Part shown: in pieces, positions 15,901 to 32,120 of the stretch
How positions within the stretch are numbered: the first letter of the stretch is position 1
Layout of the letters: every line of letters begins with the position of its first letter
NCBI GenBank assembly: GCA_900318175.1
Contig: ONJQ01000004.1
Span: forward strand, 1 to 64,000
DNA from: an uncultured Bacteroidales bacterium
GTDB taxonomy: Bacteria > Bacteroidota > Bacteroidia > Bacteroidales > P3
Direction: 5' to 3'
DNA length: 64,000 bases
Translations under genes and position numbers: made by a program
Notes under the pieces: generated by a model
The model's input: the letters and a program-made list of their open reading frames with translations, nothing else
Database searches by the model: none
What the model was told of the DNA's origin: nothing

Positions 15901-16847
15901 ACGTCGGCAAAGATGGCGGCCATCTCGTCAGGCGTCTTCAGCCACTCCTGCTTGGTGTAGTGCATGCGGTCGGGGTCGGCATAGTCCTTTTGTGTGGCAA
16001 GGCAAATCAGGTGGTCGTGCGCCTCGCCGTGCTCCTCCTCCACAAAGTGCACATCGTTTGTGGCCACCAGCTTGATGTTGTGCTTCCGTGCCAGCTCTAT
16101 CAGTATCGGGTTCACCCTCTCCTGCAGGCGGTAAGTGTCGCGGTTGGAGTTGGGCTTGTCAGTCTTGTGGCGTTGCAGCTCGATGTAGTAGTCGTCGCCA
16201 AACACCCGTTTGAACCACAGCACGGCCCGCTCTGCCCCCTCGATGTCCCCCTTCATAATTAGCTGAGGGATCTCGCCGCCCAGACAGGCCGAACAGACTA
16301 TCAGCCCCTCGTGGTATTTCTCCAGCACATTGTGGTCTATTCGCGGGCGGCTATAGAAACCGTCTGTATAGGCTATGGAGGCAAGCTTGCACAGCGAGTG
16401 GTAGCCCTGCTTGTTCTTGGCCAGCAGGATGAGGTGGTAGCCGCTGCTGTCCACTATGCGGTCGCGCCCCGTCTCCGGGTTAATCTCCTTCACGTCCTTG
16501 TCCTTGTCATACAGGGTGCGTCGGGCGCAGTAGGCCTCTGTGCCGATGATGGGCTTGAACAGCTGCCCGCGCAGTTGGTCTATTTTGTATTCGGCCTCCT
16601 GCTTCTCCTCCGGTGTGGCCCCGTCGTTCTTCAGCACCGCCTCCTGCTCCTTTATCTGGTCCTTCACCTTGCCGTTCTCCTTCTCAATGGTGTCAACAAA
16701 GTCTTTGATACCGAACATATTGCCATGGTCTGTCAGGGCCATGGCATACATCCCGTTCTTTTTGGCCTTCTTTATCAAGTCGCCAATCTTCGACATGCCG
16801 TCAAGCATCGAATAGTGTGAGTGAACATGCAAGTGAGTAAAATTCAT
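12906..16847 (-). CDS. dnaE: DNA polymerase III subunit alpha
   Basis: 1313 aa, the replicative polymerase of the replisome. The N-terminal PHP domain begins FTHLHVHSHYSMLDGMSK and contains ALTDHGNMFG. The polymerase core has VGPGRGSAAGS and the catalytic PDIDVDFDDAGR (near residue 525), later YRPGPMDYIPDF and QEQVMLLSRQLAGF. A helix-hairpin-helix (VKAGALDGIG) and an OB-fold (RFGGIVTDAKSGISPKNGDP) follow. It is longer than the roughly 1160 aa of E. coli, as usual in Bacteroidetes. It is the first gene of a minus-strand run (dnaE, GSCFA, ddl, perhaps the T9SS cargo gene), with its promoter box at 16885-16892. Confidence 0.97.
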   Translation of the reverse strand: MNFTHLHVHSHYSMLDGMSKIGDLIKKAKKNGMYAMALTDHGNMFGIKDFVDTIEKENGKVKDQIKEQEAVLKNDGATPEEKQEAEYKIDQLRGQLFKPIIGTEAYCARRTLYDKDKDVKEINPETGRDRIVDSSGYHLILLAKNKQGYHSLCKLASIAYTDGFYSRPRIDHNVLEKYHEGLIVCSACLGGEIPQLIMKGDIEGAERAVLWFKRVFGDDYYIELQRHKTDKPNSNRDTYRLQERVNPILIELARKHNIKLVATNDVHFVEEEHGEAHDHLICLATQKDYADPDRMHYTKQEWLKTPDEMAAIFADVPEALENTMEVADKVEVYSINSDPIMPVFDIPESFGSEAEYRSRITEQELFDEFTQNEKHEVVLSQADAEKKIKKLGGYNKLYRIKFEADYLEKLVWEGARKRYLTDRQDLTEGADIASIKAALTDEQRERIIFELHTIKTMGFPGYFLIVADYIRGAREELGVSVGPGRGSAAGSVVAYCLWITDIDPLKYDLLFERFLNPDRISLPDIDVDFDDAGRGRVLDWITDKYGKEKVAHIITYGTMATKSAIADVGRVEKIDLPTVNKLKEYIPDRSFPDNIKDEKGKSPKVNLSNCYKYIPELRHIMEDPGNDELKNMLTYAAELEDTNRQVGIHACGVIIGADDLTNIAPVCTIYDKESKQDVLVTQYDGHVVETVGLIKMDFLGLKNLTIIKNALKMIKKNHDVDIDIDHLPIDDEATYKLFCEGNTVGTFQFESAGMQKYLRELEPHVFEDLIAMNALYRPGPMDYIPDFIDRKQGRKPIEYDIPCMEKYLKDTYGITVYQEQVMLLSRQLAGFTRGQSDTLRKAMGKKQIEKMNELEVLFYKGGEANGHPKDKLHKIWEDWKKFASYAFNKSHATCYSWVAYQTAYLKAHYPAEYMAAVMTSGQSDIKRTTELMDDCRRHGLEILPPSINESDMDFSVNSKGQIRFGLKAISGMGEAAADAIISEREKNGPYTDIFNLLERVDLRSVNRKNIEVLVKAGALDGIGEMHRAQYFYRDGGLLTSPTYLEKLMRWSLHNRQNADNAQMSIFDMCDEIKQDSHPDIPQCEEWTVVERCREEFGVIGLYLSGHPLDDYSFEMTNYVNTQCSELADPSNLIGKELRFGGIVTDAKSGISPKNGDPYGILTVEDYSGAYNLRLFKGEYLKYKNFFVKDQFIYIQGSFRQFTRTLEDGSTYSSKPTLKISSIMLLSEVLDSKTKLIRFNIALNDITEPFCHQLQTLAKKHRGKVPMEALVTDPATGLSLTMKTRDLLVNPREMLQALNQLPSITNIKPLATAY

Positions 16848-16884
16848 GACAGTATGGAGGACTTTATTTGTTTATTACAGAATG

Positions 16885-16892
16885 CAAAGGTA
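16885..16892 (-). promoter_or_regulatory. -7 box of dnaE
   Basis: On the minus strand this reads TACCTTTG, fitting TAnnTTTG, about 37 bases before the dnaE start. It is divergent from the box at 16976-16983. Confidence 0.55.
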
Positions 16893-16975
16893 CGAAAAAT
16901 ATTCCGAACAACTGTTAATAACAGTCATAAAAAAAGCGAGGGTTCTTTTTTCTATGTCAATTCGCGGATTATGCT

Positions 16976-16983
16976 TATTTTTG
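16976..16983 (+). promoter_or_regulatory. -7 box of the DUF3089 gene
   Basis: TATTTTTG, 23 bases before the ATG at 17007. Confidence 0.5.
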
Positions 16984-17006
16984 CATTCTTAATACAATAA
17001 TCGGTT

Positions 17007-17981
17007 ATGATTAGAAAATACTCTGCCACAATTATTTCTGTGGTTTTTGCCCTTGGCCTTTGCTGTGTCGTCGGGTCGGTTTCGTGTCGAAACAGTCGTG
17101 TCGCGCAGGCTGAAGATGTAATCCCTGCACAACCCGACTATGCCGACAGTACCCAATGGTATATCACCCAGCGCGATGCTCCAGTCGACCTTTTCTATAT
17201 CATCTCCACCGAGACGGGCGACTATACTATTGAAGGCATTCCCTGCCACTATGCCGACACCCGCAACGATAGCATCCGGCAGCTCCTCTTCGGCGAGATG
17301 CGACGAGTCGACCAGCTTCTTTCCGGCAGCCTTAACTACTACTCCCCCTACTACCGTCAGTGTACACTGCAGACCTTCACCTCCGACTCCCTTGTTGCCG
17401 CCCGCATGCCCATTGCCATGACCGACTGGCGCAAGGCCTTTGCCCACTATCTCGCTCACTTCAACCAAGGGCGTCCATTCATTCTGGCGGGCTTCAGTCA
17501 GGGGGCTCTTGCCGTGGTTGACCTCATCAAAAGCATGGATTCCTCGGTCTACAGCCGAATGGTGGCCGCCTATGTTATCGGCTGGCATGTCACCGACCGC
17601 GACCTTGCCGCCACGCCCTACCTCCGTCCGGCACAGGACAGTTCCGACCTCGGCGTCACCATCTGCTACAACACCGTCCGCGACAACAGCAGCGCCATCC
17701 CCATGATAAGCAACGGCAACCGTTTCGCCATCAATCCTGTGAACTGGAGCACTGACCCTAAACCCGCCACACTGGTCAGCCCCATCTCTCCTGACACCCT
17801 TACCGTCACTCTCGACACCGCCACCTTGCTATTGCAGGTTCTGGGCTACAGTGGAAAGGACTACATCATCCCCCTCATAGGCCGCGAAGGCAACTATCAC
17901 AGCCTCGAAATCTCCCTCTACCGGCAATCCCTCCGCCGTAACTTCGCCCTCCGCGCCAACGCCTTCATGGCGTTGCATTAA
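17007..17981 (+). CDS. DUF3089 alpha/beta-hydrolase-like lipoprotein or secreted protein
   Basis: 324 aa. The N-terminus has a membrane-spanning signal (SVVFALGLCCVVGSVSCRNS) whose final cysteine at about residue 27 could be lipidated. The family signature is clear: YYSPYYRQCTLQTF, then the nucleophile elbow RPFILAGFSQGALAVVDLI with Ser in GFSQG, and later VIGWHVTD. DUF3089 proteins are alpha/beta-hydrolases of unknown substrate. It is a single-gene unit on the plus strand, divergent from dnaE and convergent with the helicase gene. Confidence 0.85.
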   Translation: MIRKYSATIISVVFALGLCCVVGSVSCRNSRVAQAEDVIPAQPDYADSTQWYITQRDAPVDLFYIISTETGDYTIEGIPCHYADTRNDSIRQLLFGEMRRVDQLLSGSLNYYSPYYRQCTLQTFTSDSLVAARMPIAMTDWRKAFAHYLAHFNQGRPFILAGFSQGALAVVDLIKSMDSSVYSRMVAAYVIGWHVTDRDLAATPYLRPAQDSSDLGVTICYNTVRDNSSAIPMISNGNRFAINPVNWSTDPKPATLVSPISPDTLTVTLDTATLLLQVLGYSGKDYIIPLIGREGNYHSLEISLYRQSLRRNFALRANAFMALH

Positions 17982-17987
17982 TGCAGA

Positions 17988-18027
17988 AATGGGTTAATCC
18001 GTCAATCGATTCACGGATTAACCCATT
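17988..18027. repeat. Near-perfect palindrome, octamer-family intergenic repeat
   Basis: AATGGGTTAATCCGT pairs with ACGGATTAACCCATT around a 10-base loop, between two convergent gene ends. It may act as a two-way terminator. Its building block, TTAATCCG followed by TCAATC/TGAATC, also fits the octamer repeats at 28209-28285, 38216-38296 and 63562-63626. Confidence 0.75.
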
Positions 18028-18042
18028 GCCACACCAACGCGT

Positions 18043-20127
18043 TCAAAGGCGGCCAATTTTTCTCCCCAGCCGTGTGAAGGCTTTGCTCTCTTGGGGCGAC
18101 GCGCTCAGCATCTGCTCAAAGGCCTTTTCTGTGAGGTCCGTGTTGTTGAAGGCCATCACCAGCTTCTCATTCTCGTCCGTCTCGCTCTCCTCGGTGGTGG
18201 GCAAGGCCTTGCCGTTCTTCAGCGCCTCCGCCCTCAGCATGACGTATGCCGACAGGCATTCTGGGCATATCTTTATCAGCCGCTTGCAGATGGCCATGTT
18301 CGAGTTGCCAAGGCGCTCGTTGATTCTGGCCTCTAATAGAAGTTGCTTCATGTCGATGGTCTTCTTGTCGTCCGACTCCTGCGTCGCCATCATGATTTGA
18401 TAGTCCACATCGTAGGCATCTTCATAACGCTCCAAACAGTAGAGGGCGCGTTCCTTGACAAACATAGCCTCCAGACAGGCCTTCCGGTTCAGCACCATAT
18501 TGGCATACCCAATGGCATCCTCGTACCGCTCGCCGTACAGGCACAGCACGGCATTCAGGAAGTTGCACGTCATGCTGCAGTCCTTCAGCAGCTCCACCTC
18601 CTTCGTCTTGCCCATCAGACATCTGTCGTCCAGCATCACGTCGAACATCCTCTTGGCTACCAGAGCCGCGTTGCGGTAGTCGCCTTTACGGCACTTGTCC
18701 ACCACATATTTCAGGCAAGTGCCCACAGCACCATCATGGTCCTTGCTGGCAAGGTACTTGTATACCTCCTGCCCAATTTGCAACTCGTCGTCAATCATCT
18801 CAGTGTTGTTGTAGGAGTTGGCAAAAGCCCTGATTTCGGGATTCTGGATGATGTGGGAGGGTAGGAGAGGACGGCTCAGTGTCAGCCCTTCCAACGAGCG
18901 CATGCGGCTGATGGCCACGTATGCCTGACCTGGGGCAAAGGTGCCGCGCGTGAGGTCGAAGTGCATCCTGTCGAAGGTCATCCCCTGCGACTTGTGGATG
19001 GTGATAGCCCACGCCAGTTTCAACGGATACTGGGTAAACGTGCCCACCACCTGCGACTCCATCTTCTTTGTCTCTCTGTTATACACCCGCTCCAAACTCT
19101 CCCACACCGTCTGCGCCACATTCACCTCCGCGCCGTTCTCCAGTTTCACGGTGATGGTGTCCTCACTAAGGTTCGACACCTTGGCAATCGTGCCGTTGAT
19201 ACAATTATGTGAAATGTTCCGGCAGAACATCACCTGTGCACCCACCTTCAGTTTCAACTGTTCCGGCACGATAAAGTCTTTCGTGTTGAACTTGCCGTCC
19301 TTCTGACCCATATAGCAAAATTCTTCACCGTCCAACTCAGCCAGCTTCCGCTCATTCATCAGGTCTGCCCGCTTCCGATAAGCACTCAGAATAACCGAAT
19401 AGTCCTCTGTAGCATCTGAATAGTTCACGTGTTGGTTGAGCAGTTCAAGGTCTGCGGGGGTGCTCTCTCCGATTCGTAGCCGGTTCAGCACGTCAAGGAA
19501 TGCGCCATCCTTCTGGCGGTACACGGTACGAAACTCAATCTTGGGCAGGTTTATCCTCTTCAACACATGAGCCTTGTAGAAATAGGGTGTTCCCTTCTCC
19601 CACAAGTCGCACAACATGTCCTCGTCGGCAGGTTCCGACACCACAGGCGGCAGTTGGAACAGGTCGCCCACAAACACCACCTGCTTGCCGCCAAACGGCA
19701 TGTGGGTATGGAAGGCTGTGCGCAGAAACCTGTCCATCCCATCCACCAAGTCACATCGCACCATCGACACCTCGTCCACAATAATCGTGTCGATATGCTT
19801 CAACAGTATCTGCTTTTCCTCCGATACCCTCATCTGAGTATGGGGTCCTATCACCTCAAAAGGGAAGCCGAAAAACGAGTGTATCGTCTGCCCGCCTACA
19901 TTGATGGCGGCAATACCTGTCGGAGCCAGCACCAGGAAGTTCTTGTCTATCTCCTCCTGAATCATCTTGATGAAAGTGGACTTACCCGTACCCGCCTTAC
20001 CAGTGATAAACAGTGGTGTGTTGGTGTTAGCAATCAGGTCAAAAGCCTTCTGCTGGTCGGCATCCATCGTGAATGCCTTCTGCTCAACGACGTTAGTCTC
20101 GTCAACCTTAAATTCTGTATTTTCCAT
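18043..20127 (-). CDS. PIF1-like SF1B DNA helicase with C-terminal helical extension
   Basis: 694 aa. The helicase part covers about residues 20-430: Walker A FITGKAGTGKST (43-51), APTGIAAINVGGQTIHSFF, Walker B TIIVDEVSMV (113-122), the QLPPV motif, YRQKD, and the closing AWAITIHKSQGMTFDRMHFD and YVAISRMRSLEGL. The last 260 residues are a helical region rich in short repeats that looks TPR-like. PIF1 helicases unwind DNA 5' to 3'; this Bacteroidetes form is chromosomal and not linked to a mobile element here. A hairpin lies in its 5' leader at 20131-20186. The gene is GC-rich, unlike the block just upstream of it. Confidence 0.9.
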   Translation of the reverse strand: MENTEFKVDETNVVEQKAFTMDADQQKAFDLIANTNTPLFITGKAGTGKSTFIKMIQEEIDKNFLVLAPTGIAAINVGGQTIHSFFGFPFEVIGPHTQMRVSEEKQILLKHIDTIIVDEVSMVRCDLVDGMDRFLRTAFHTHMPFGGKQVVFVGDLFQLPPVVSEPADEDMLCDLWEKGTPYFYKAHVLKRINLPKIEFRTVYRQKDGAFLDVLNRLRIGESTPADLELLNQHVNYSDATEDYSVILSAYRKRADLMNERKLAELDGEEFCYMGQKDGKFNTKDFIVPEQLKLKVGAQVMFCRNISHNCINGTIAKVSNLSEDTITVKLENGAEVNVAQTVWESLERVYNRETKKMESQVVGTFTQYPLKLAWAITIHKSQGMTFDRMHFDLTRGTFAPGQAYVAISRMRSLEGLTLSRPLLPSHIIQNPEIRAFANSYNNTEMIDDELQIGQEVYKYLASKDHDGAVGTCLKYVVDKCRKGDYRNAALVAKRMFDVMLDDRCLMGKTKEVELLKDCSMTCNFLNAVLCLYGERYEDAIGYANMVLNRKACLEAMFVKERALYCLERYEDAYDVDYQIMMATQESDDKKTIDMKQLLLEARINERLGNSNMAICKRLIKICPECLSAYVMLRAEALKNGKALPTTEESETDENEKLVMAFNNTDLTEKAFEQMLSASPQESKAFTRLGRKIGRL

Positions 20128-20130
20128 TTT

Positions 20131-20186
20131 GTTAACCTTTTTGTTTGTTTCTATCCGTTAATGACAGAAACACACAAAAGGTTAAC
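20131..20186. repeat. Inverted repeat in the leader of the PIF1-like gene
   Basis: GTTAACCTTTTTGTTTGTTT (from 20131) pairs imperfectly with the bases ending AAAAGGTTAAC at 20186. It lies 4-59 bases before the start codon and could hide or expose the ribosome site. Confidence 0.5.
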
Positions 20187-20200
20187 AACTGGTACACATA

Positions 20201-20509
20201 TTAATCAATAGTATATGAAAAATAGCAGGTACTTTCCTTCAGTTCATCGCTATTCACCCCTGGACCAAATGCGATATTGTAAGGAAAGTAATGTACTTCG
20301 CACCAATGCTTTTGTTTTATCATCCTCTTTATTGACCTCACCCAATTCTCAACCATTTTTTTATCCATTGGAGGATTAATAAACACATCAAGATTCGCAC
20401 CTTTCCCTTCACTAATTACTTCATTAATCTTAGAACATAATACATCGCATTCTATAGGATTCCCTTGTTTACTCGTTGTGAACTTTATCGAAAAAACTAT
20501 ATCTTTCAT
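20201..20509 (-). CDS. Small protein of unknown function beside the CHAT operon
   Basis: 102 aa, not recognised. It begins MKDIVFSIKFTTSKQGNPIE, is soluble, and has no signal peptide; it looks like a mixed alpha/beta domain with the segments LDVFINPPMDKKMVENW and WCEVHYFPYNIAFGPG. Base composition matches the AT-rich caspase/CHAT block rather than the GC-rich helicase gene on its other side. It follows the CHAT gene by 154 bases and has its own TATCTTTG box at 20610-20617, so it is probably a separate transcript. Confidence 0.65.
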   Translation of the reverse strand: MKDIVFSIKFTTSKQGNPIECDVLCSKINEVISEGKGANLDVFINPPMDKKMVENWVRSIKRMIKQKHWCEVHYFPYNIAFGPGVNSDELKESTCYFSYTID

Positions 20510-20609
20510 CTTTGAAAAGTTTTAATTATTAATATTTTATTACTTTGTTTGTCATTTGGAGAAACACCTACTGCAGTAGTGTTTTGATTTTTGATTCCAA
20601 ATTCCAACG

Positions 20610-20617
20610 CAAAGATA
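20610..20617 (-). promoter_or_regulatory. -7 box of the 102-aa gene
   Basis: TATCTTTG on the minus strand, about 100 bases before the start at 20509. Confidence 0.5.
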
Positions 20618-20663
20618 TATTACTTTTTCAGAAACGACAAAAGATATTGTCTGATATATTATT

Positions 20664-23600
20664 CTAATCTAGCAAAACAAATGAAGCCCAGTAATTTGCA
20701 TCTTGATATTTTTCTTTCATCGTATGGGTTGCATAGGTATAGGATTCATGTTTCGAATAGCCTTTTACCAATTTCTCATAAAACAGATCCATGAACTCTG
20801 AAGTGGCTTTATCATCAATTTTCCAGAGACTCATTAAGATAGACCCAACACCAGCCTTTTTGAAAGCTCGTTGCAAGCCGAATATTCCATCAAGCATGTC
20901 ATCGCCAAGCCCTGTTTCGCAAGCAGACAATACAACAAGGTTAACATTATGTAAATCAAGCTTTGATATCTCATAGGCGGTTAATATTCCATCGTTTATA
21001 TCAACACCAAAAGTAGAATCAGTCCATGCATTTTGACCTCCAGACATAATTAAACCAGAGTAGAATAGTTCATCTTGAACATTCTTCGTACTCTCACTAT
21101 TAGCAAAATAAGGAATGGCTTCTCTTTGACCTCGAGGAATATAATAGCCGTGAGAAGCAACATGAATAATATCAGCATTTGTGCCATCAAGAGCCTTAAA
21201 TAGTGCTTCTGTAGCACCCTTCCCCACATTTGCTGTAATGCTTATATTGTTCTCTGAAAACAATTCTTTTAGTCGGTTGATTTCGTACTGGGTGTTTTTT
21301 AGATACGACCAATTGCCTCTTGTATTTAAACTATCCAATACAGTTTGGGCATTATCGTAGTCAATGTCACCAAAAGAAACTACATAGGCTGGCTTATATT
21401 CATTAGATGGGAAAAGAACATTTTTTGTTGAAGAAACCCGATACAAATTGAATCTTTGTAAAGCAGTCTGCCCCGTATTATCAGTAAGTAATTCAATATT
21501 CATTAGGTTCAATAAACCCATCGGAGAAAAAAAGATACTCTCTTTCCCATCCAAATATTGTTGAAGTTTGCCCCAAATCTTTGAATACAAAACCTTTCCT
21601 TGCTCTGTGTCATACGATTTAGGTTGATAATTATATACATCCAATAATTCTTCTTCATCAAACAAATCAACAAAAGATGGGGCATGGTTATTGTTGCTCA
21701 AAACAATTGCCCCATAATGTGGAATAAGGTCAGCATTACTCCAAGCATAACCATTTTTATAATACTTGACAAATTCTATGCAAGCTTCTTCTTTATGAAG
21801 CCCCCTCTGAACATCTTTCCAATGAACTCTTAACTGTTTTCTGTTGGTCTCTGCTAAAATCTGGCGTTCCAATTTCTCGTACTGATGTAAAGTTTGCCAC
21901 CTTTGAATGTCATCTGTTATATCATAAATACTATCACGTAATTGTTCTAATCTATGAATAACTATTGACTGATTTGAATCTCCATCTGTTTGTAAAATAT
22001 GTGCAGTGTGACTCAACAATAAACCTTTCATTAATAGGGCTGCATCATATGCAACACCACAACTGATCTCATCTTTAGGATTCCAAGATGTCCATTCGGG
22101 AATTTGATACAATGAACTCCCATGACTTGCCATATAATTGCTAGACTCAATTACCCCAAGGACAGGCAGTATTTCTATGATTTCTTTCTCCAACCTATTA
22201 TAAAATAGTGGCAGGTATCGGTGTAAGCCTACAGTATCACAAAGATATGATGATTTTAATACTAAACTTTCAAAATATGCACTCCCATAATGATTCCAAG
22301 TAGACTCATCTAATATATTCAACGCCTTTTGATCGTATTCATAAGACTTTTGTAATTGCCCCAACCTTTGGTAATAATTGGCCCAAGCAGCATAAAGACT
22401 TCTCAATAGTTCTGCATACGACTCATTTCTTTTAATAGTTTCTTTATAAGTAGTGATATAATTACCAGCACTAGTCAGATATGATTTTGCCGAATCCCTG
22501 TAATCAGTAATACTATCCATTAGCATTGAGTAGGCCTTCCCAATATCTAACAATAAGCTGGCATTTGATTCTGGTGAGCTTTCCTCGGAAAAATACAACG
22601 CTATATCCTTATATTCGAGAATTTTTTCTGGTTGATTGCAGAGTTCATATAGAAAATATACTGACCAGTCAGATTTGGTATGTTGCCATCCTAATTTAGC
22701 ACGAACAATAATTTCTCTAAGTCTTAACGCTGCTGCCAACTTAAATTGACCCGATTCAAAATAGTTAGAAGCTAACACGTCAATAATATCACAATAATCA
22801 AAGTCTTCTTTATAATTAAATAATACTCCGAATGCTTTGTCGCTATATTCTCTACACAATGCATACTCATGTATCATTGAATAATTCCGTCCAATGCCTG
22901 CATTACATGCAGCAATTTTTTGTGAAAGTGTATCATTTAATGCAAGTAGTGGTTGTAAAATATCTATTGCTTTCTTGTATAGTTCATTTGATTCCTTGTA
23001 TTCTTTCTTCTGAGCACTTATTGTTTGGGCAAAAGACATTAACTCGCCAACGTATTCTAACTCATATTCTAAAATCTGTGCCTTGTATTGGCTCGTATCT
23101 AAACTACAGACATATTGTCTATTGTTCAAATACCATTTTTCTATCTCGCCAATTTTATTTTCTACAAGATGTCCGTTATTATCTAAACTATTAAAAATTC
23201 GATTTGCTAAAAACCAATGACTAATTTTGTTATACTGAATAACCTGAACTTTTTCTACTGGTAGCCGTTTTATAACGTCAAGACTGTTTTGTAAGATGTA
23301 TATTGAATCTGCATATCCACCTACACCCCGACACTCTCCAAGAATATAGGCTAACTCAGTCGTATAATATGGTAGCATTTCTGGGAGTTTCTTCTCCATT
23401 TTTCTTAGAAAAGTCAAAAGAAATGGTACAGCCTCATCTGTCCTTTGAATACGCCTAGCCAAGCTAATGGCAACATACCAATGCTCAAAGTATCCTTCTG
23501 GGGTTAACCCATAGTCATAGAATTCGTCAATATGTTCATCTAATAACAAGCAACATCTTCGTTTCAGCTCATATGATACCGAAAAATCCTCTTGATCAAA

Positions 23601-23777
23601 ATAATAGTCACTCGCATTGGTAAGCAAATTGAACGCATTTACAAGTTGGCTATGTTCTAAATAATAATCAACTAAATCATTTACTTCTTTCAAGTCGTAT
23701 TGCTGAGCTTGTAAATAATGCCCACAACCAATTAGACTTAATAGACAAAATATGGTACGGATTTTTTTAATAATCAT
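20664..23777 (-). CDS. Secreted TPR protein with C-terminal CHAT protease domain
   Basis: 1037 aa from the chosen ATG (an ATG 33 bases upstream is possible but would put a polar segment before the signal peptide and overlap the previous gene). The signal peptide is IRTIFCLLSLIGCGHYLQAQ. Residues 25-650 are helical repeats of TPR type (for example AWANYYQRLGQLQKSYEYDQ). The last 300 residues are a CHAT domain, a clan CD cysteine protease related to caspases: the catalytic His lies in IIHVASHGYY (about residue 876), the Cys in LVVLSACETGLGDDM (about 953), and the typical end is VGSILMSLWKIDD with YWASFVLLD. It is the last gene of the caspase/sigma/anti-sigma operon, 10 bases after the anti-sigma-like gene. 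Both catalytic residues are intact. The substrate is unknown; a target cleaved in the periplasm or at the surface is inferred from the signal peptide. Confidence 0.88.
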   Translation of the reverse strand: MIIKKIRTIFCLLSLIGCGHYLQAQQYDLKEVNDLVDYYLEHSQLVNAFNLLTNASDYYFDQEDFSVSYELKRRCCLLLDEHIDEFYDYGLTPEGYFEHWYVAISLARRIQRTDEAVPFLLTFLRKMEKKLPEMLPYYTTELAYILGECRGVGGYADSIYILQNSLDVIKRLPVEKVQVIQYNKISHWFLANRIFNSLDNNGHLVENKIGEIEKWYLNNRQYVCSLDTSQYKAQILEYELEYVGELMSFAQTISAQKKEYKESNELYKKAIDILQPLLALNDTLSQKIAACNAGIGRNYSMIHEYALCREYSDKAFGVLFNYKEDFDYCDIIDVLASNYFESGQFKLAAALRLREIIVRAKLGWQHTKSDWSVYFLYELCNQPEKILEYKDIALYFSEESSPESNASLLLDIGKAYSMLMDSITDYRDSAKSYLTSAGNYITTYKETIKRNESYAELLRSLYAAWANYYQRLGQLQKSYEYDQKALNILDESTWNHYGSAYFESLVLKSSYLCDTVGLHRYLPLFYNRLEKEIIEILPVLGVIESSNYMASHGSSLYQIPEWTSWNPKDEISCGVAYDAALLMKGLLLSHTAHILQTDGDSNQSIVIHRLEQLRDSIYDITDDIQRWQTLHQYEKLERQILAETNRKQLRVHWKDVQRGLHKEEACIEFVKYYKNGYAWSNADLIPHYGAIVLSNNNHAPSFVDLFDEEELLDVYNYQPKSYDTEQGKVLYSKIWGKLQQYLDGKESIFFSPMGLLNLMNIELLTDNTGQTALQRFNLYRVSSTKNVLFPSNEYKPAYVVSFGDIDYDNAQTVLDSLNTRGNWSYLKNTQYEINRLKELFSENNISITANVGKGATEALFKALDGTNADIIHVASHGYYIPRGQREAIPYFANSESTKNVQDELFYSGLIMSGGQNAWTDSTFGVDINDGILTAYEISKLDLHNVNLVVLSACETGLGDDMLDGIFGLQRAFKKAGVGSILMSLWKIDDKATSEFMDLFYEKLVKGYSKHESYTYATHTMKEKYQDANYWASFVLLD

Positions 23778-23787
23778 AAAATAACCA

Positions 23788-24459
23788 TTAAATTTTGTGC
23801 AATAATTCATCTACTATATTGCATATCTGATTATCTGTAGAATAATCAGCCTTCATCCGTTCAAGTACCATCCTTGCCTCTTTCTTATCATATTTAAGTA
23901 GATATGCATTTGCAAGATTCCATCCAATATAAGGAGCATAGGTTGTGTATTCATTGTATGTATCACTTTGTGATTGTTGCCAGAGTACATCAAGCTGTTC
24001 AATGGTATTGTCTATATCTCTATTGTTGGCGACATTGTCAAAAAGCACGGTTAACTGTTCAAATACCTCATCATCTTCTTCTCCCCGGATTTCTGTTGAT
24101 AACGGAAATGCTGTTGCATATTCTTTACCTAAACTGACCGTGGAAGAGTAGTCATAAGTATAGTAACCTACCGTAATCAGCAACGCAAAACTTGCTGCAA
24201 TAGAAAGCCAACGCGTTGGTCGAGTCTTTTTCTTTGAGGAGCCTCTCATCTCCTCAACTAGTTTTCTGTCTTGTTCAGAACCTAAAGCATTCATTGCCTT
24301 GATGGTTCTTGCTATAGCCTCTGTTTGATTCCTCAGGGTCTCATCACTTTGTATATCCTTTTCAAATAGAGTCTCCTCATCAGGTGTCATCTCTCCATGA
24401 AGATAGCGAGTTATTCTCTCTTCATTCTCTTGCAGTATGTCATCCTTATTACTGTCCAT
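23788..24459 (-). CDS. Anti-sigma-factor-like single-pass membrane protein
   Basis: 223 aa. The cytoplasmic N-terminus (residues 1-80) has the layout common to anti-sigma proteins of this phylum: ERITRYLHGEMTPDEETLFE. A single membrane helix follows (WLSIAASFALLITVGYYTY, about 83-102). The periplasmic part is helical and TPR-like (YIGWNLANAYLLKYDKKEAR). It lies 20 bases after an ECF sigma gene and 10 bases before the CHAT gene. The inferred job is to hold the sigma factor at the membrane and release it on a periplasmic signal, possibly through cleavage. No zinc-binding HxxxCxxC motif is present, so the call rests on layout and context. Confidence 0.7.
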   Translation of the reverse strand: MDSNKDDILQENEERITRYLHGEMTPDEETLFEKDIQSDETLRNQTEAIARTIKAMNALGSEQDRKLVEEMRGSSKKKTRPTRWLSIAASFALLITVGYYTYDYSSTVSLGKEYATAFPLSTEIRGEEDDEVFEQLTVLFDNVANNRDIDNTIEQLDVLWQQSQSDTYNEYTTYAPYIGWNLANAYLLKYDKKEARMVLERMKADYSTDNQICNIVDELLHKI

Positions 24460-24479
24460 AGTTTTTTGCTTTTACCCAT

Positions 24480-25070
24480 TTATAATGCTTTCACTGCCAC
24501 CTCATAGTTCTTCCGGAATTTTTCTTGACAACGATGCTTGGTGACTTTGGCGACACTTTCACTGGCATAATGGAACATTTGTGCAATGACTTTCATTGAC
24601 AATGCATCACGATAGTATGACCAAAGCAATTTATCGCATGGCGGTGGCAATTGCTTCACCATATCCAGTACAATACCATCTCTTTTGTTTACTCTTTTTT
24701 CATCCTTGTCAATTATGTCAAGAAGTCTTTCTGCCTTATTCAATAACGTGTTATATCTTTCCCCATTTGCTTCAATTGAATAGTCTTCTATATACACTAT
24801 TTGTGCTTTCCCGTTTGCCCTAAGTTGTTCATGCGCCTTATTGTTGCAGATGCCAATAAAGTATGTGTATAGAGAGGATGTTAGATTGTCTAGTTTGCCA
24901 TCTATGGCAGCACGATATAGCACAATTGAAGCTTCTTGAAACACATCTTCACTATCTTCTTTGCTCAAAGAAAACGTTTTCTGCAAATAAGAGAGTGTAC
25001 GGCTCTGATACTCTTTGGCAAAGTCGTTTAATACCTTATCCTGTTTACGATTCAATGCAATTGTGGCCAT
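24480..25070 (-). CDS. ECF-type sigma-70 family RNA polymerase sigma factor
   Basis: 196 aa. Region 2 is visible as FSLSKEDSEDVFQEASIVLY and LTSSLYTYFIGICNNKAHEQ (about residues 34-85). Region 4 covers about 130-190: LDMVKQLPPPCDKLLWSYYR, then the helix-turn-helix SMKVIAQMFHYASESVAKVT. The linker is longer than usual for ECF factors. The start codon follows the caspase stop codon after a single base (TAG-T-ATG), so the two are translationally coupled. The sigma gene lies inside the operon it may control. No second, ECF-type promoter consensus was recognisable by eye. Confidence 0.85.
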   Translation of the reverse strand: MATIALNRKQDKVLNDFAKEYQSRTLSYLQKTFSLSKEDSEDVFQEASIVLYRAAIDGKLDNLTSSLYTYFIGICNNKAHEQLRANGKAQIVYIEDYSIEANGERYNTLLNKAERLLDIIDKDEKRVNKRDGIVLDMVKQLPPPCDKLLWSYYRDALSMKVIAQMFHYASESVAKVTKHRCQEKFRKNYEVAVKAL

Positions 25071-25071
25071 A

Positions 25072-25974
25072 CTATTTTGAACTTTCTACTACCATGTGTT
25101 GCCTAATCAGCCGCACATCCATATCCATAGCTTTCCGTACATTCTCTATCCAATTAATGTCATAGGATAGGGGCTGGGTTAACAATTGTTGGGAAATAAA
25201 ATACGATATTGGTCCATAATACTTGCCATCCTGTTTGATTTCAGTATTCACTTCATACGACCGACAGGCTTCTAACATATAAATTGGAGACAAACAGGCT
25301 GAATTCTTTATCCTAATGTTTCCTCGTTTGTCTATCCGTGGGGCATAGTTTTTGCCACTCTTACTAAAGCCTATATCGGTACCTCGAACAAAGATACTAT
25401 CTTCCACTGCATCACCCCGATAAGACGACCCTGCATGACAAGCATCAATAACAACATATAGGATTCCTCTTTGTCCAATCTTCTCTCGAATGGCATTTAG
25501 GTATTCATTAAGTTCATCATCAGGCAAATGTTTCTCTCCTGCGTAAACATTAATTTTATAGCGTCTTTGTGCGTCATAAGGTATAAACGCCTCATCCCAA
25601 CCATCCTCTTCATCTCCACTCTCATCCTCAACAGCTTGTCCATGCCCTGAAAAGTGGACATACACGATATCACCCTCTCGCACCTCATCCTTTAACTTGA
25701 CAAGACTCTTTGTAATGGCCTTATATGTCGCAGTCTTATCCTGCAATGTATTGATACGAAATCCCTGCTTCTTTAATATCGGTTTGATTAGCTGAACATC
25801 ATTTACGCCATGAATCTTTGGCCATGATGCATCATTGTCAGTATATTGCGGGTAATCCGAGATTCCAACCAACAAGGCATGTCTCTCTTGTGCCGTTAAT
25901 GTCAATGGCTGTGGCACTATACACGTCATTATCATGATTACCACGTTCAAGAGTATGGATCTATTTGAACTCAT
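25072..25974 (-). CDS. Secreted caspase-family (peptidase C14) protein
   Basis: 300 aa from the chosen start, which gives a clean signal peptide (SILLNVVIMIMTCIVPQPLT, cleaved near TAQ). The upstream in-frame codons reach 26091 but cross the promoter box. The p20-like fold is clear: RHALLVGISDYPQY, IVYVHFSGHGQAVED with His111, and ILYVVIDACHAGSSYRG with Cys179, forming the catalytic dyad. An acidic loop (EDESGDEEDGWDE) after the His resembles metal-binding acidic loops in metacaspase-like enzymes. The C-terminal part contains a conserved-looking SACLSPIYMLEACRSYEVN, a surface that may bind substrate. It is the first gene of the operon with the sigma factor, anti-sigma-like protein and CHAT protease. 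Bacterial caspases of this type cut after Arg/Lys or Asp; specificity here is not known. Confidence 0.88.
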   Translation of the reverse strand: MSSNRSILLNVVIMIMTCIVPQPLTLTAQERHALLVGISDYPQYTDNDASWPKIHGVNDVQLIKPILKKQGFRINTLQDKTATYKAITKSLVKLKDEVREGDIVYVHFSGHGQAVEDESGDEEDGWDEAFIPYDAQRRYKINVYAGEKHLPDDELNEYLNAIREKIGQRGILYVVIDACHAGSSYRGDAVEDSIFVRGTDIGFSKSGKNYAPRIDKRGNIRIKNSACLSPIYMLEACRSYEVNTEIKQDGKYYGPISYFISQQLLTQPLSYDINWIENVRKAMDMDVRLIRQHMVVESSK

Positions 25975-26049
25975 CTGGCTCGGATTGTTTGTTTCTGTTT
26001 TATTATCGGCAGTTCTCCAAATTGTTCTTCTATCTTTCAAAAGCAATTG

Positions 26050-26057
26050 CAAAGATA
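26050..26057 (-). promoter_or_regulatory. -7 box of the caspase/sigma/CHAT operon
   Basis: TATCTTTG on the minus strand, about 76 bases before the caspase ATG at 25974. It is the housekeeping type, so basal expression should not need the operon's own sigma factor. Confidence 0.6.
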
Positions 26058-26241
26058 CTAATATTTTTCCATTTGGCATAAAAAACATCAATCCCGGTCC
26101 CCAAAATTGATGGGTAGAACTAATGTGGATTAATCAGCTATTGGTCATGAATCTGTCTGAAAAAGAGTCTTAATACTGCTTGCGACACTTTCTCTTAACT
26201 ACAAGAATACACCCCAATTGCGCAACGCTAGTGCTTCTCAT

Positions 26242-27555
26242 TTACATATCTTCGAGTGACAGCCCAATTGTTTGTATTTTATATCGCGGAAACAGTGGTT
26301 TGATTTGTTTCGTCTTTTCGTTGAGGAGCCGGAGGTCGATTTTACTGCGGTTGCGCTTCACTTCGGCGACAGTCACTTGCCGGTCGAGACCATATACTGC
26401 TATCAAGTCTATCTCATTTTCACCACTGCGGTCCCACCACGATGAAACTTCCGTCACCCGTTCCTGCTCTGCATACTTTTGACGGAAGTATTTTTCAAGC
26501 ATTAAACCGCTATATTGCGTATAGCCATCTTCGATTATCTCTTGAAGAAGCTTCATATTGTCCATAGCCAGCATCTGGCTGTTTGGTGCAATAAAACGGA
26601 ACCAGAAAGCAAGGAAGTTGTCGTTCAGACGCCAGCGCACATTACGGCAACCCGGCTTGCTTCCATATGGCAGGTTACGCTGTATGAGTGAATACTCGTT
26701 TTCAAGCACCTGCATGTATTGTCCGGTACTTTTACCCACCACACTGTCGATTTCCTTTTGAGAAGTCATGCCAGAGGCTATGAGTTGTAGTATTCCGAAA
26801 TAATTGGTGTATTGCTTACCAAATTCCCCGATTAACATGTCCGGGGCTTCATTCAAGAAACGGGAACCGACAGAGCAAATGGCATTGAGCATACGTTCTT
26901 TAGTTGTAGCAGCTTGATCCATCAACAGGCTAACGTACATGGGCACTCCACCTGTGACGGTGTATAGAAAGAGCAGGTCCTCTGGTGAATACTGAGGATT
27001 GTGCTCTTGAAGTATTTGTTTCAAAGTATTGGTTCGGAATGGCTTAAGAATGATTTTGTGCGTCATACGCCCAAACAACGGCTCTTTGCTATTCTCAAAA
27101 ATACGCTTCATCATTGAGTATATGGAACCGCACACAATGAAATTGATTTTCGACCGCTGATGATACATGTCCCACAGGTATTGCAGTCTGCTAAAGAAGT
27201 CTGAACTGACATATTCCAATTCTTGGAACTCATCAATTACTAACGTCAGCTGTTCTTTCTCTGCATATTGAAACAGCTGCTCAATGAGTTCGTGTAGCTT
27301 CAGATTATGCCCAACAATGCGGATGTCGGTCTGTCGCTCGATGGATTGTTGAAACATCTGGCTGAGCACGCCCTCACTGGTACGATTGGCAAAGAGGTAA
27401 ACAAAGTTGCGCTTGTTGCCAAGGGCGTTTAATATTAACGATGTCTTACCGACACGTCGGCGACCTATCATCACCGTCATCGTTGCTGTGTGGAAGGACT
27501 GCGCCCATATTTTTTCCAGACTTTCCGATTCTTGCTCTCTACCGTAGAATTTCAT
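26242..27555 (-). CDS. AAA ATPase with C-terminal DUF234 nuclease-like domain
   Basis: 437 aa. It belongs to the archaeal-type ATPase family common in Bacteroidetes. The N-terminus MKFYGREQESESLEKIW leads to Walker A MIGRRRVGKTSLIL (about residues 30-43) and Walker B LTLVIDEFQELEY. A winged-helix region follows (GMTSQKEIDSVVGKSTGQYM). The C-terminal DUF234 part contains NEIDLIAVYGLDRQVTVAEVK, a PD-(D/E)XK-like pattern. The role is unknown; nucleic-acid binding is likely. A perfect palindrome lies exactly between its promoter box and start codon. It reads in the same direction as the caspase operon but has its own promoter. Confidence 0.82.
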   Translation of the reverse strand: MKFYGREQESESLEKIWAQSFHTATMTVMIGRRRVGKTSLILNALGNKRNFVYLFANRTSEGVLSQMFQQSIERQTDIRIVGHNLKLHELIEQLFQYAEKEQLTLVIDEFQELEYVSSDFFSRLQYLWDMYHQRSKINFIVCGSIYSMMKRIFENSKEPLFGRMTHKIILKPFRTNTLKQILQEHNPQYSPEDLLFLYTVTGGVPMYVSLLMDQAATTKERMLNAICSVGSRFLNEAPDMLIGEFGKQYTNYFGILQLIASGMTSQKEIDSVVGKSTGQYMQVLENEYSLIQRNLPYGSKPGCRNVRWRLNDNFLAFWFRFIAPNSQMLAMDNMKLLQEIIEDGYTQYSGLMLEKYFRQKYAEQERVTEVSSWWDRSGENEIDLIAVYGLDRQVTVAEVKRNRSKIDLRLLNEKTKQIKPLFPRYKIQTIGLSLEDM

Positions 27556-27572
27556 TGTATCAGCATTTTAAA

Positions 27573-27599
27573 TAATCGCCATTACCGTAATGGCGATTA
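27573..27599. promoter_or_regulatory. Perfect palindrome at the transcription start (probable operator)
   Basis: TAATCGCCATTAC and its exact reverse complement flank one central base. It begins on the base next to the minus-strand box TATCTTTG (27600-27607) and covers the expected start of transcription of the DUF234-type ATPase gene. A dimeric repressor bound here would block transcription. Confidence 0.65.
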
Positions 27600-27607
27600 C
27601 AAAGATA
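27600..27607 (-). promoter_or_regulatory. -7 box of the DUF234-type ATPase gene
   Basis: TATCTTTG on the minus strand, abutting the palindrome, 45 bases before the ATG at 27555. Confidence 0.6.
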
Positions 27608-27708
27608 CAAAATATTTTTGAATAGAGACTTACGAAGGCGATTTTTATGCAAAAATACAAATAATGCATACGAAAGGAGCCTCAGTTACTACCCCTCTTG
27701 GAAGTGAT

Positions 27709-27776
27709 TGCCGTTGCTCCTATTCAGTCGCGACGGCGAGGTGTATGCCGTTGCTCCTATTCAGTCGCGACGGCGA
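27709..27776. repeat. 31-bp tandem duplication at a gene end
   Basis: The 31 bases at 27709-27739 recur exactly at 27746-27776 (offset 37). The second copy holds the last codons and stop of the gene at 27757-28209; the first lies just downstream. This is a local duplication of the 3' end. Confidence 0.8.
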
Positions 27777-28209
27777 ATACTTCTTCGCCATTCATGCGCA
27801 TGGAGGTCAGTTTCCATGAGCCGTCGGGTTGCTTGCTGTAGCGGTATTTATATACCGTCTTGGTGGGCTTGCCATCCTCGTCGTAGGTGGTTTGGGTGCA
27901 GCGGATGCGGTTGCCGTGGCAGTCGTATTTGTTCTCTTCGGTGTAGAGAAGATACTCGTCGGCGGTGTAGATCTCTTTGCGTTCGGGACGCCCTTGGCTG
28001 TCGTAGCTTTGCAAGGTGCGGGTCTCCACCACGCCGGTACTGTCGTATGTGTAGGTGATGAGCACCGCCAGTCGGTCGTTGGCGTCCACCACACCGTGCG
28101 ACGAACTGACCACACGGCCATGCTCGTCATATTTCACCCCAATCTCTTGGCCCGAGGCAACAAAGGCAAGAACTAACAAATAAAAACTAAGAGCAAAAAA
28201 GTGTCGCAT
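27757..28209 (-). CDS. Secreted YD-repeat-like small protein
   Basis: 150 aa with a signal peptide (FFALSFYLLVLAFVASGQ). The mature part has repeated beta-hairpin units of RHS/YD-like appearance: VKYDEHGRVV, YTYDSTGVV, QSYDSQGRPERKE, NKYDCHGNRI and TYDEDGKPTKTV. Such short proteins in Bacteroidetes are periplasmic or surface proteins of unknown role. It stands alone. Its end carries a 31-bp tandem duplication. There is no lipobox. Confidence 0.65.
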   Translation of the reverse strand: MRHFFALSFYLLVLAFVASGQEIGVKYDEHGRVVSSSHGVVDANDRLAVLITYTYDSTGVVETRTLQSYDSQGRPERKEIYTADEYLLYTEENKYDCHGNRIRCTQTTYDEDGKPTKTVYKYRYSKQPDGSWKLTSMRMNGEEVFAVATE

Positions 28210-28285
28210 ATCTGTGTTAATTCGTTAATATGGGAATGAGTAAATCAGATTCACGAATTAACACATTCCCTTATTGACACATTCA
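28209..28285. repeat. Octamer-family intergenic repeat, inverted arrangement
   Basis: On the minus strand 28285-28248 is a 38-base unit made of four degenerate octamers and a closing TGAATC: TGAATGTG, TCAATAAG, GGAATGTG, TTAATTCG. A plus-strand partial unit (TTAATTCG, TTAATATG, GGAATGAG, TAAATC) faces it from about 28216, so GTGTTAATTCGT and ACGAATTAACAC can form a stem. It lies between ettA and the gene at 27757. Confidence 0.65.
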
Positions 28286-28289
28286 AGTA

Positions 28290-29960
28290 TTACTTCATCA
28301 GTTTCTTGTAGCGTAGGCGGTGTGGGGTGTCGTCGCCGAGGCGTTTGCGGCGGTTCTCCTCATATTCGCTGTAGCTTCCCTCAAAGAAATAGACTTGCGA
28401 GTCGCCCTCGAAGGCCAGGATATGGGTACAGATGCGGTCGAGAAACCAGCGGTCGTGGCTGATGACCACGGCGCAGCCGGCAAAATTCTCCAAGCCTTCT
28501 TCCAAGGCGCGCATGGTGTTCACGTCAATGTCGTTGGTGGGCTCGTCAAGCAGCAGCACATTGGCTTCGCTCTTCAGCGTCAAGGCCAAGTGCAGACGGT
28601 TGCGCTCGCCACCACTCAGCACACCCGCTTTCTTGCTCTGGTCGGTGCCGGTGAAGTTGAAACGCGACAGGTAGGCGCGGGCGTTCACCAGACGGCCGCC
28701 CATAGGTATGAGCTCGTTGCCCTCTGACACCACATCATAGACGCTCTTCTCGGGGTCTATCTGCACGTGTTGCTGGTCCACATAGCCTATCTTTACGGTC
28801 TCGCCCACGGTGAAGGTCCCCGTGTCGGGTTTCTCCAATCCCATGATAAGGCGGAAGAGGGTCGTCTTGCCGCATCCGTTGGGGCCGATGATGCCCACGA
28901 TGCCCGCAGGGGGCAGACTGAACGTGAGGTTCTCGTATAGAAGTTTGTCGCCGTAGGCCTTGCTGACGCCCTCCACCTCCAGCACCTTGTTGCCCAGTCG
29001 TGGGCCGTTGGGGATGAAGATTTCGAGGTTCTGCTCCTTCTCCTTCACGTCCTCGTTCATCATACGGTCGTAGGCTGCCAGACGGGCCTTGCCCTTGGCA
29101 TGACGGGCTTTTGGGGCCATACGCACCCATTCCAGCTCGCGCTGCAGGGTCTTGCGGCGTTTGCTCTCCTGTTTCTCCTCCATGGCCAGACGCTGCGTCT
29201 TCTGGTCCAGCCAGCTGCTGTAGTTGCCCTGCCAGGGGATACCCTCGCCGCGGTCCAGCTCCAGGATCCAGCCCGCCACGTTGTCGAGGAAGTAGCGGTC
29301 GTGGGTGACGGCAATCACCGTGCCTTTGTACTGGCGCAGATGCTGCTCCAGCCAGTCAATGCTCTCTGCATCCAGATGGTTGGTGGGCTCGTCCAGCAGC
29401 AGGATGTCAGGCTCCTGCAACAGCAAACGACACAGGGCGACACGTCTCCGCTCACCGCCGCTGAGGTTCTTGACGGGGGTATCCTCGTCGGGGCAGCGCA
29501 GGGCATCCATGGCGCGCTCCAAGCGGCTGTCCAAGTTCCAGGCATCGTATTGCTCCAACAGTTCTGTCAGCTCGCCCTGCCTTTGGCACAGCTTGTCAAA
29601 GTCGGCGTCGGGTTCGGCAAAGGCGTTGTTCACCTCCTCATACTCCTTCAGCGCATCCACCACGGGCTGCACGGCTTCCTGCACCACCTCTTTGACGGTC
29701 TTGCTGTCGTCCAGCTTGGGCTCCTGTTCCAGATACCCCACGCTGTAGCCGGGAGCGAAGACCACCTCGCCTTGGTAGTCCTTGTCCACGCCCGCAATGA
29801 TTTTGAGCAACGAGGACTTGCCTGAGCCGTTCAAGCCGATAATGCCGATTTTGGCCCCGTAAAAGAAGGAGAGGTAGATGTCCTTCAATATCTGGCGGGA
29901 AGGGGGTATCAGCTTGCCCACGCCCACCATGGAGAATATGATTTTCTTGTCGTCAGCCAT
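28290..29960 (-). CDS. ettA: Energy-dependent translational throttle protein EttA (ABC-F)
   Basis: 556 aa, the expected length. Two ABC domains without membrane segments: first Walker A GLNGSGKSS and signature LSGGERRRVAL with LLLDEPTNHLD; second Walker A GPNGCGKTT and LSGGERNRLHL with LLLDEPTNDID. The linker between them is the P-site tRNA interaction motif region (AMEEKQESKRRKTLQRELEW). EttA binds the ribosomal E site and gates the first peptide bond according to the ATP/ADP ratio. It lies 80 bases after recJ on the same strand, with a hairpin between. Confidence 0.93.
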   Translation of the reverse strand: MADDKKIIFSMVGVGKLIPPSRQILKDIYLSFFYGAKIGIIGLNGSGKSSLLKIIAGVDKDYQGEVVFAPGYSVGYLEQEPKLDDSKTVKEVVQEAVQPVVDALKEYEEVNNAFAEPDADFDKLCQRQGELTELLEQYDAWNLDSRLERAMDALRCPDEDTPVKNLSGGERRRVALCRLLLQEPDILLLDEPTNHLDAESIDWLEQHLRQYKGTVIAVTHDRYFLDNVAGWILELDRGEGIPWQGNYSSWLDQKTQRLAMEEKQESKRRKTLQRELEWVRMAPKARHAKGKARLAAYDRMMNEDVKEKEQNLEIFIPNGPRLGNKVLEVEGVSKAYGDKLLYENLTFSLPPAGIVGIIGPNGCGKTTLFRLIMGLEKPDTGTFTVGETVKIGYVDQQHVQIDPEKSVYDVVSEGNELIPMGGRLVNARAYLSRFNFTGTDQSKKAGVLSGGERNRLHLALTLKSEANVLLLDEPTNDIDVNTMRALEEGLENFAGCAVVISHDRWFLDRICTHILAFEGDSQVYFFEGSYSEYEENRRKRLGDDTPHRLRYKKLMK

Positions 29961-29989
29961 AGTTGTTGGTTTTTATGTTGGTTTATAAT

Positions 29990-30025: not shown

Positions 30026-30041
30026 CGATGATTATTACTGT

Positions 30042-32097: not shown

Positions 32098-32120
32098 AGA
32101 TGTAGCTATGAATGAGTGGA

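Follow-up and report, generated by a model that had tools for sequence, protein, structure and literature searches.

The DNA under study (the window) comprises the first 64,000 nucleotides of contig ONJQ01000004.1 from an uncultured Bacteroidales bacterium (assembly GCA_900318175.1), the genome of which amounts to 2.9 Mb at 91.8% completeness. Its minus strand carries, at 20664-25974, a four-gene operon that runs from a caspase through an extracytoplasmic function (ECF) sigma factor and a single-pass anti-sigma-like protein to a TPR-CHAT protein (Table 1). The intergenic gaps are 1, 20 and 10 bases, and the four genes are probably carried on one transcript. Both this arrangement and the upstream promoter box, as proposed in a first-pass annotation of the DNA, were borne out. 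Among named genomes, the nearest sigma factors (95-97% identity) are those of the uncultured Bacteroidales RUG264 and RUG348 (RUG presumably denoting a rumen uncultured genome) and of an SRR8387717 bin.

Table 1. Coordinates of the operon, its marked residues and adjoining features in the window
Feature	Position	Strand	Basis
Caspase (metacaspase-type peptidase C14), predicted to be secreted, 300 amino acids (aa)	25072..25974	-	Pfam C14, E 3e-15
Caspase catalytic H111 codon	25642-25644	-	Invariant, 12/12
Caspase catalytic C179 codon (D177 two residues ahead of this Cys)	25438-25440	-	Invariant, 12/12
ECF sigma factor, 196 aa	24480..25070	-	TIGR02937 (sigma70-ECF), E 2.6e-13, above cut-off
Single-pass anti-sigma-like protein, 223 aa	23788..24459	-	Alignment A1, weak family matches, low-confidence model
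Arg125 codon of invariant Arg-Gly-Glu in outer linker, candidate cut site	24085..24087	-	13/13 in alignment
TPR-CHAT protease, predicted to be secreted, 1037 aa, exchangeable cassette	20664..23777	-	Pfam CHAT, E 1.9e-43
CHAT catalytic H876 codon	21150-21152	-	Invariant, 12/12
CHAT catalytic C953 codon	20919-20921	-	Invariant, 12/12
Promoter -7-type box TATCTTTG	26050..26057	-	Same box in 5/12 loci, TATATTTG in 2 more
102-aa open reading frame (ORF), variable fifth slot; operon membership uncertain (154-base gap)	20201..20509	-	No family above cut-off
PIF1-like helicase, fixed flank of variable site, outside the system	18043..20127	-	Pfam PIF1, E 4.6e-32

The box TATCTTTG is situated 83 bases upstream of the caspase ATG and is of the TAnnTTTG form, which we take to be the Bacteroidetes -7-type promoter element. 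In a comparison of 12 loci, for which the caspase starts were partly estimated, the identical box was present at the window locus (WIN) and at L017, L018, L019 and L021 (L-numbers denoting the other loci compared), TATATTTG was present in L023 and L024, and other versions of TAnnTTTG were found at a similar position in L028 and L029; the sole promoter-type match in L020, L022 and L025 is closer to the start. The GC content is 35% in the CHAT gene and 38-40.5% in the other three, against 53-59% in the surrounding helicase, YD and ABC-F genes. The initial picture of an AT-rich block between GC-rich flanks holds against these genes but is less marked against the ATPase gene adjoining the caspase, which has 45%.

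By profile, the nearest PDB chains to the caspase are metacaspases and GSU0716. The protein shares with metacaspases and orthocaspases the C14 fold and His/Cys dyad, and D177, which like H111 and C179 is invariant in all 12 alignment rows, presumably fits orthocaspase-type cleavage after Arg or Lys. The EACC1-associated caspase model scored E 0.00096 with this protein (18.7 of 140 bits, far below its cut-off), and the only PADLOC match at E 0.1 was to the generic caspase model (E 1.1e-12); the sigma, anti-sigma and TPR-CHAT proteins matched no PADLOC model at E 0.1. For the sigma factor, the match to Pfam sigma70 region 2 was below cut-off.

The third protein was assigned as anti-sigma-like because of its layout and its position behind the sigma factor, the family matches being weak (NF052375 at E 0.0024, far below cut-off). 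A cytosolic helical part (residues ~1-83) precedes a positive stretch and the single membrane helix (~84-102), which is followed by a linker and a TPR-like outer part (130-222). The structure model is of low confidence, with a predicted local distance difference test score of 59.8, and gave no Foldseek match at E 0.001. A protein of this build would be expected to bind and inhibit the sigma factor.

In the TPR-CHAT protein the TPR part spans roughly residues 25-545, an extent taken from the model, the Pfam TPR match falling below its cut-off, and the CHAT domain occupies residues 725-1035. The CHAT His and Cys are invariant across all 12 proteins aligned, down to 21% identity to that of the window; the two dyads named in the first-pass annotation, H111/C179 and H876/C953, are thus kept throughout each alignment. 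Its assignment of signal peptides to both proteases gained support in that similar N-termini recur across the caspase and CHAT alignment rows, as judged by eye. The LIGC at the start of the window CHAT protein we take to be a possible lipobox. These signal-peptide-like starts, together with the single helix and positive stretch of the anti-sigma-like protein, suggest that the two proteases and the anti-sigma outer part are located in the envelope.

Gene order and the exchange of the CHAT cassette

The sigma protein, used as a query, was found in 14 of 190 family genomes, that of the window included, and the order caspase, sigma, anti-sigma, CHAT recurs in nine of the 13 others (L017-L025), with one TPR gene inserted ahead of CHAT in L025. 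The contig of L026 ends inside sigma, anti-sigma and CHAT being present; L028 and L029 have the first three genes, CHAT not being found; and L027 is a sigma fragment only. At the level of the order, 26 of 295 genomes, again including the window's own, gave a match to the caspase profile. Twenty-four of the 27 other caspase places were fetched, several of them cut by contig ends, and all four components were found in four, each from another family: L097 and L098 have them in the order of the window, L096 and L116 are arranged differently, and a contig end truncates the anti-sigma gene of L116. L102, L105 and L117 have sigma and anti-sigma with no CHAT, and the other 17 regions are without sigma, anti-sigma or both. 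The prediction that gene order would be conserved in related genomes was thus confirmed for the family, and the four components cluster in four further families. In a separate observation, L028 and L029 have caspases that are 99% identical, sigma factors that are 49% identical and anti-sigma proteins that are 79% identical, so the sigma/anti-sigma part may itself be exchanged.

Among WIN, L017, L018 and L019, mutual identity is 87-94% for the caspase, 92-97% for sigma and 78-91% for anti-sigma. The CHAT proteins of WIN and L019 are 98% identical and those of every other pair 26-28%, so that WIN, L017 and L018 combine 83-97% identity in the other three proteins with 26-28% in CHAT. Starting in the upstream flank, the DNA of WIN and L017 is colinear (89%) up to a point 72 bases short of the end of the anti-sigma gene, and there is no alignment between that point and the helicase (81%). 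Colinear flanks around a non-aligning middle imply in-place replacement of CHAT together with the ORF behind it. The earlier suggestion that the block was probably acquired therefore applies to these two genes; the operon itself sits in a chromosome stretch that is colinear in the window and L017.

Similar reassortment was seen at other loci. L020 and L023 share 87% identity in CHAT and 75% in sigma; sigma and CHAT are 97 and 30% identical, respectively, between L020 and L022, and 96 and 32% identical between L023 and L024. The CHAT data reject the core groups L023+L024 (p 0.001), L020+L021+L022 (p 4e-60) and WIN+L017+L018+L019 (p 2e-6), and the core data reject the grouping L020+L023 (p 6e-5), long CHAT branches making the deeper CHAT tree unsure. 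Between L021 and L022 identity per 100 residues is 21-36% in the TPR half and 68-99% in the protease half, and L022 and L026 differ likewise. Sequence comparison thus indicates that CHAT is a swapped cassette on a stable caspase-sigma-anti-sigma core and that, in these last two pairs, the sensor (TPR) part alone was exchanged.

The gene behind CHAT is variable as well. This fifth slot holds AbiH in L017 (overlapping CHAT by 8 bases) and L023 (3 bases off), a DUF3800/PDC-S51 protein in L018, an exonuclease VII large-subunit-like protein in L024, two proteins of similar look but no family in L019 and L020 (226 and 238 aa), and small ORFs in WIN, L022 and L026; the fifth-slot proteins of 102, 116, 226 and 238 aa matched no family above cut-off. 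L020 and L023 have a common CHAT and different fifth genes. The PIF1-like helicase occurs in 22 of 120 genus genomes and adjoins the operon in eight of those. A hotspot with such varied cargo would suit the view that the core and the CHAT and Abi genes are unrelated passengers, neighbours by chance in a defence island, but gaps of 1-20 bases, an order kept across genera and families and the phylum-wide link described below render it very improbable. A phage-borne system was rejected, a pattern scan of viral contigs, sensitive to close relatives only, having found no relative of the caspase and phage records giving no match; a plasmid-borne one was rejected because all of 78 plasmid records were below 60% identity.

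Variation at the end of the anti-sigma protein was also considered. Its last 41 aligned residues are identical (41/41) in WIN and L019, which have the same CHAT. Where CHAT differs, 21 of 41 are shared by WIN and L017 and 18 of 41 by WIN and L018, the remainder of the protein being 89-97% identical, and 29 of 41 by L023 and L024. Counter to co-variation of tail and CHAT, L020 shares 38 of 41 residues with each of L021 and L022 despite different CHAT, and the 36 of 41 shared by L020 and L023 (same CHAT) compare with 35 of 41 for both L021-L023 and L022-L023 (different CHAT). The tail is read here as a probable edge of recombination, which is no proof of contact with CHAT.

Association of CHAT with short anti-sigma proteins and the conserved linker site

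CHAT matches (E 1e-15) were present in 70 of 148 genomes of a phylum sample. An ECF sigma factor together with this type of anti-sigma protein was found in 16 of 36 CHAT regions, most of which were picked for their high scores and of which some genomes contributed two or three, against three of 40 other regions from the same genomes (Fisher p 3.6e-4); L119, one of the seven cases within 300 bp, is a doubtful match to a 937-aa protein, and L173, one of the three control regions, itself contains CHAT. The caspase profile matched in none of the 36 CHAT regions.

When the N-terminal part of the anti-sigma protein was searched for, matches were found in 113 of 198 genomes of the class, and 40 regions were fetched. 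CHAT lay within ~5 kb of 10 of the 24 anti-sigma proteins with a short outer part (up to 175 residues; L237 and L245 among them do not look TPR-like) and of none of the 16 with a long one (p 0.0026), L250 and L262, where a CHAT gene lies ~6 kb away outside the fetched stretch, being counted as without CHAT. With the caspase counted along with CHAT the figures were 10/24 and 1/16 (p 0.027), a count that leaves out L103, L116, L119, L138 and L141 (poor, cut or odd), L225 (the same gene as L154) and A4 profile matches below 150 aa.

It is conceivable that the sigma factor merely controls expression of two secreted proteases whose targets are other extracellular proteins, the anti-sigma protein being no substrate. 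The occurrence of CHAT near anti-sigma proteins with short, mostly TPR-like outer parts and not near the long type argues against this, as do DdvA, in which anti-sigma and TPR-CHAT are joined in one chain, and the Craspase precedent (both discussed below); we consider it unlikely.

Inspection of the linker revealed that R125, G126 and E127 are invariant in all 13 aligned anti-sigma proteins, two of which come from loci without CHAT within ~8 kb. The motif lies 23-29 residues past the membrane helix in 12 relatives, as located by a simple hydropathy rule, and the model places it in a stretch of low confidence, past a juxtamembrane helix and ahead of the TPR-like helices. Once 15 more near-duplicates had been removed (54 to 39), Arg followed by Gly, Ser or Ala was present in the linker of 24 of the 39 non-redundant short anti-sigma proteins, whereas 2000 shuffles averaged 9.0 and never exceeded 18; the same test showed no enrichment of Lys, Glu, Gln, Leu, Asp or Asn. 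A division of the site into Arg and Met types according to partner was dropped, Met before Gly, Ser or Ala having been found in seven of 39 (P 0.25 against shuffles). Arg-Gly-Glu is therefore put forward as a candidate cleavage site. Because orthocaspases cleave after positively charged residues (passages of PMC6426788) and Craspase sites vary among orthologs (M|K, L|D and A|S in passages of PMC11106740), the caspase is favoured as the cutting enzyme.

A non-proteolytic CHAT protein, in which the TPR-CHAT body binds both ligand and anti-sigma outer part and alters the shape of the latter while the caspase cuts, would account for L028 and L029, where caspase, sigma and an anti-sigma protein with Arg-Gly-Glu are kept and CHAT was not found. 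It is quite improbable given that His and Cys persist in all 12 CHAT proteins even at 21% identity to the window's.

Apart from the operon, the window's own genome has one further CHAT and one further C14 match at E 0.001. At L030 (8692-12239, contig C36) the second CHAT gene encodes 779 aa, and the gene of a CHASE2 membrane protein (E 1e-18), a further membrane-located partner of CHAT, lies 11 bases behind it; the 18 kb fetched yielded neither a sigma nor a caspase match. At L095 (7912-15592) a caspase is followed by two tandem CHAT genes, with no sigma/anti-sigma match in the 18 kb fetched.

Relation to DdvA, Craspase and described caspase operons

Foldseek with the CHAT model returned DdvA first (6.9e-11), then separase (7.8e-11) and the Craspase TPR-CHAT protein (1.8e-10). 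The CHAT profile matched DdvA residues 833-975 at 1.4e-9, where ATHG and AACE provide the His and Cys; phmmer with the protein (P0004) alone found no relative in the PDB, profiles alone reaching relatives. By profile, DdvA and Craspase Csx29 come out as the closest solved relatives of the TPR-CHAT protein.

DdvS-DdvA of Myxococcus xanthus (DdvA structures 8rot and 8rw5) is, like the system in the window, an ECF sigma factor with a transmembrane anti-sigma protein, and DdvA has a TPR-CHAT part of like fold with His and Cys and with CHAT at the C-terminal end. DdvA is a single chain of 991 residues, whereas anti-sigma and TPR-CHAT are separate genes in the window. Fusion of the two was rejected for Bacteroidia, CHAT being present in none of 14 long anti-sigma-type proteins (13 regions, one cut by a contig end). 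We know of neither a caspase nor a swapped cassette associated with DdvA. The first-pass statement that known CHAT and caspase systems are cytoplasmic is contradicted by DdvA, the first Foldseek match, which is deposited as a transmembrane anti-sigma with TPR-CHAT. Passages of PMC4374960 describe DdvS as turning active upon inactivation of DdvA.

Craspase/CASP (type III-E: Cas7-11, Csx29, Csx30, CASP-sigma), as far as the passages drawn on describe it, likewise has a TPR-CHAT protein, an ECF-like sigma inhibitor and a transcription output; Csx29 cleaves Csx30, which is proposed to relieve a sigma factor (PMC10028731, in part). Unlike the window system, it is described there as cytosolic and RNA-guided. 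A CRISPR-linked Craspase was ruled out: the genome, 91.8% complete, has no RAMP (PF03787) match at E 0.001 (four of 14 control genomes match), and window positions 14000-34000, 20 kb around the operon, contain no CRISPR-like array, only two 2-copy repeats (at least 22 bases, within 120 bases).

EACC2-caspase neighbourhoods, compared by their description in passages of PMC8195603, also have caspase, ECF sigma and TPR (DUF1822) genes and a constant and a variable part; the variable part is fused to the caspase, whereas in the window it is a separate TPR-CHAT gene. Metacaspase operons with sigma-70 in Myxococcus and others (PMC3501461) also place caspase and sigma in one operon, but the word CHAT is absent from the main text of that source, unlike the window system with its CHAT gene. 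That no described system has this make-up, as initially claimed, holds at most for the exact four-gene set, given these caspase/sigma-70 operons and caspase-ECF-TPR neighbourhoods in the passages cited. Neither the four-gene unit nor its cassette exchange was found in the portions covered of the open-licence literature on CHAT or caspase with sigma or anti-sigma, DdvA and Craspase. The part types and the principle are already known from DdvA, Craspase and EACC2; the four-gene set and the cassette exchange may be new.

Proposed switch and its possible role

The data are best accommodated by a model in which proteolysis of the anti-sigma protein is linked to transcription, one of two feedback routes put forward in the first-pass annotation, the other being proteolysis of the CHAT protein by the caspase. 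In the resting state, the ECF sigma factor would be kept at the inner membrane by the N-terminal, cytosolic part of the anti-sigma protein. A fast-changing ligand would be detected on the outside by the TPR half of the secreted TPR-CHAT protein, and CHAT, the secreted caspase or both would cleave the anti-sigma outer part, the disordered linker at Arg125-Gly126 being the likeliest place. Sigma would then be released by further proteolysis, for transcription of its own operon and of a response. The core would remain stable while the TPR-CHAT gene, the TPR half and the following effector-type gene (AbiH or others) are traded by recombination. Such a periplasmic sigma switch, gated by proteases, equipped with an exchangeable sensor and resembling a split DdvS-DdvA, we hold to be just on the probable side.

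Trading of cassettes is the pattern expected of a recognition arms race, and a role in defence or conflict is favoured because of the swap pattern and the Abi neighbours, although we put its chance a little short of even. When the same upstream site was examined with PADLOC in genomes without the operon (eight loci), AbiEii and AbiEi were found in L269 and AbiEi in L273; one protein each from L268, L276, L277, L280, L281 and L285 gave no match at E 0.001. L271, L272, L274 and L275 are AbiEi-like by eye only.

Several points weigh against these proposals. The profile A4 was built from CHAT- or caspase-linked anti-sigma proteins, which biases the class-wide counts towards a CHAT link. Arg before Gly, Ser or Ala is also found where no caspase is nearby, and Arg-Gly-Glu may be structural rather than a cut site. 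An Abi-type setting is no proof of defence, to which an ordinary envelope response, though rather unlikely, is a serious rival. The switch would then be real but a DdvS-DdvA-style pair for envelope stress or cell-surface signalling, the CHAT swaps reflecting general hotspot exchange and not immunity. Consistent with this, the DdvA literature, in the passages drawn on, holds no tie of DdvA to phage, L025 continues with secreted TPR, PPC-like and HtrA-like genes in place of Abi genes, and many ECF/anti-sigma pairs without CHAT have the same layout. It is less easily reconciled with AbiH as a fifth gene twice, overlapping CHAT by 8 bases or lying 3 bases away, with AbiE occupying this site in two further genomes that were tested, or with replacement of the TPR half next to a protease half that is 68-99% identical.

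The boldest form of the defence proposal, which we regard as unlikely, is a Craspase counterpart that works in the envelope and without CRISPR. It would serve Bacteroidales as an innate immune sensor: exchangeable TPR-CHAT receptors in the periplasm would detect, at the cell surface, molecules of phages or competitors, and caspase/CHAT cleavage of the anti-sigma protein at Arg125 would set off a transcriptional alarm along with Abi-type effectors that are likewise exchangeable. If the proposed switch is right, the guarding of a sigma factor by TPR-CHAT proteases would extend well beyond CRISPR and into a widespread phylum, with the circuit of Craspase as a single branch of an older theme of protease and anti-sigma protein. 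The trade in sensors and effectors round a fixed signalling core would then represent bacterial receptor diversification at the envelope. The conserved Arg-Gly linker offers a direct test of which protease cuts what.

Further features were noted at and near these loci. The genes around CHAT in the distant relative L025 (3335-9293) encode a TPR protein that looks secreted, a protein matching PPC weakly and an HtrA-like serine protease, the last a possible further site-1 protease. On the plus strand of the window, a gene pair at 706-2785 with 38% GC, ~15 kb from the helicase flank, matches the two members of an abortive-infection pair, AbiLi (E 6e-66) and AbiLii (E 9e-14). Just upstream of the operon, an ATPase_2/DUF234 protein (26242-27555, minus strand) matches the candidate defence model PDC-S27 (E 1.6e-49); L017 has a near-identical ATPase start at the same position, and L020 a PDC-S27 match ahead of the caspase (E 1.9e-47). 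The YD-repeat gene 27757-28209 has at its 3' end a 37-base repeat in two tandem copies (27701-27774) that are 92% identical.

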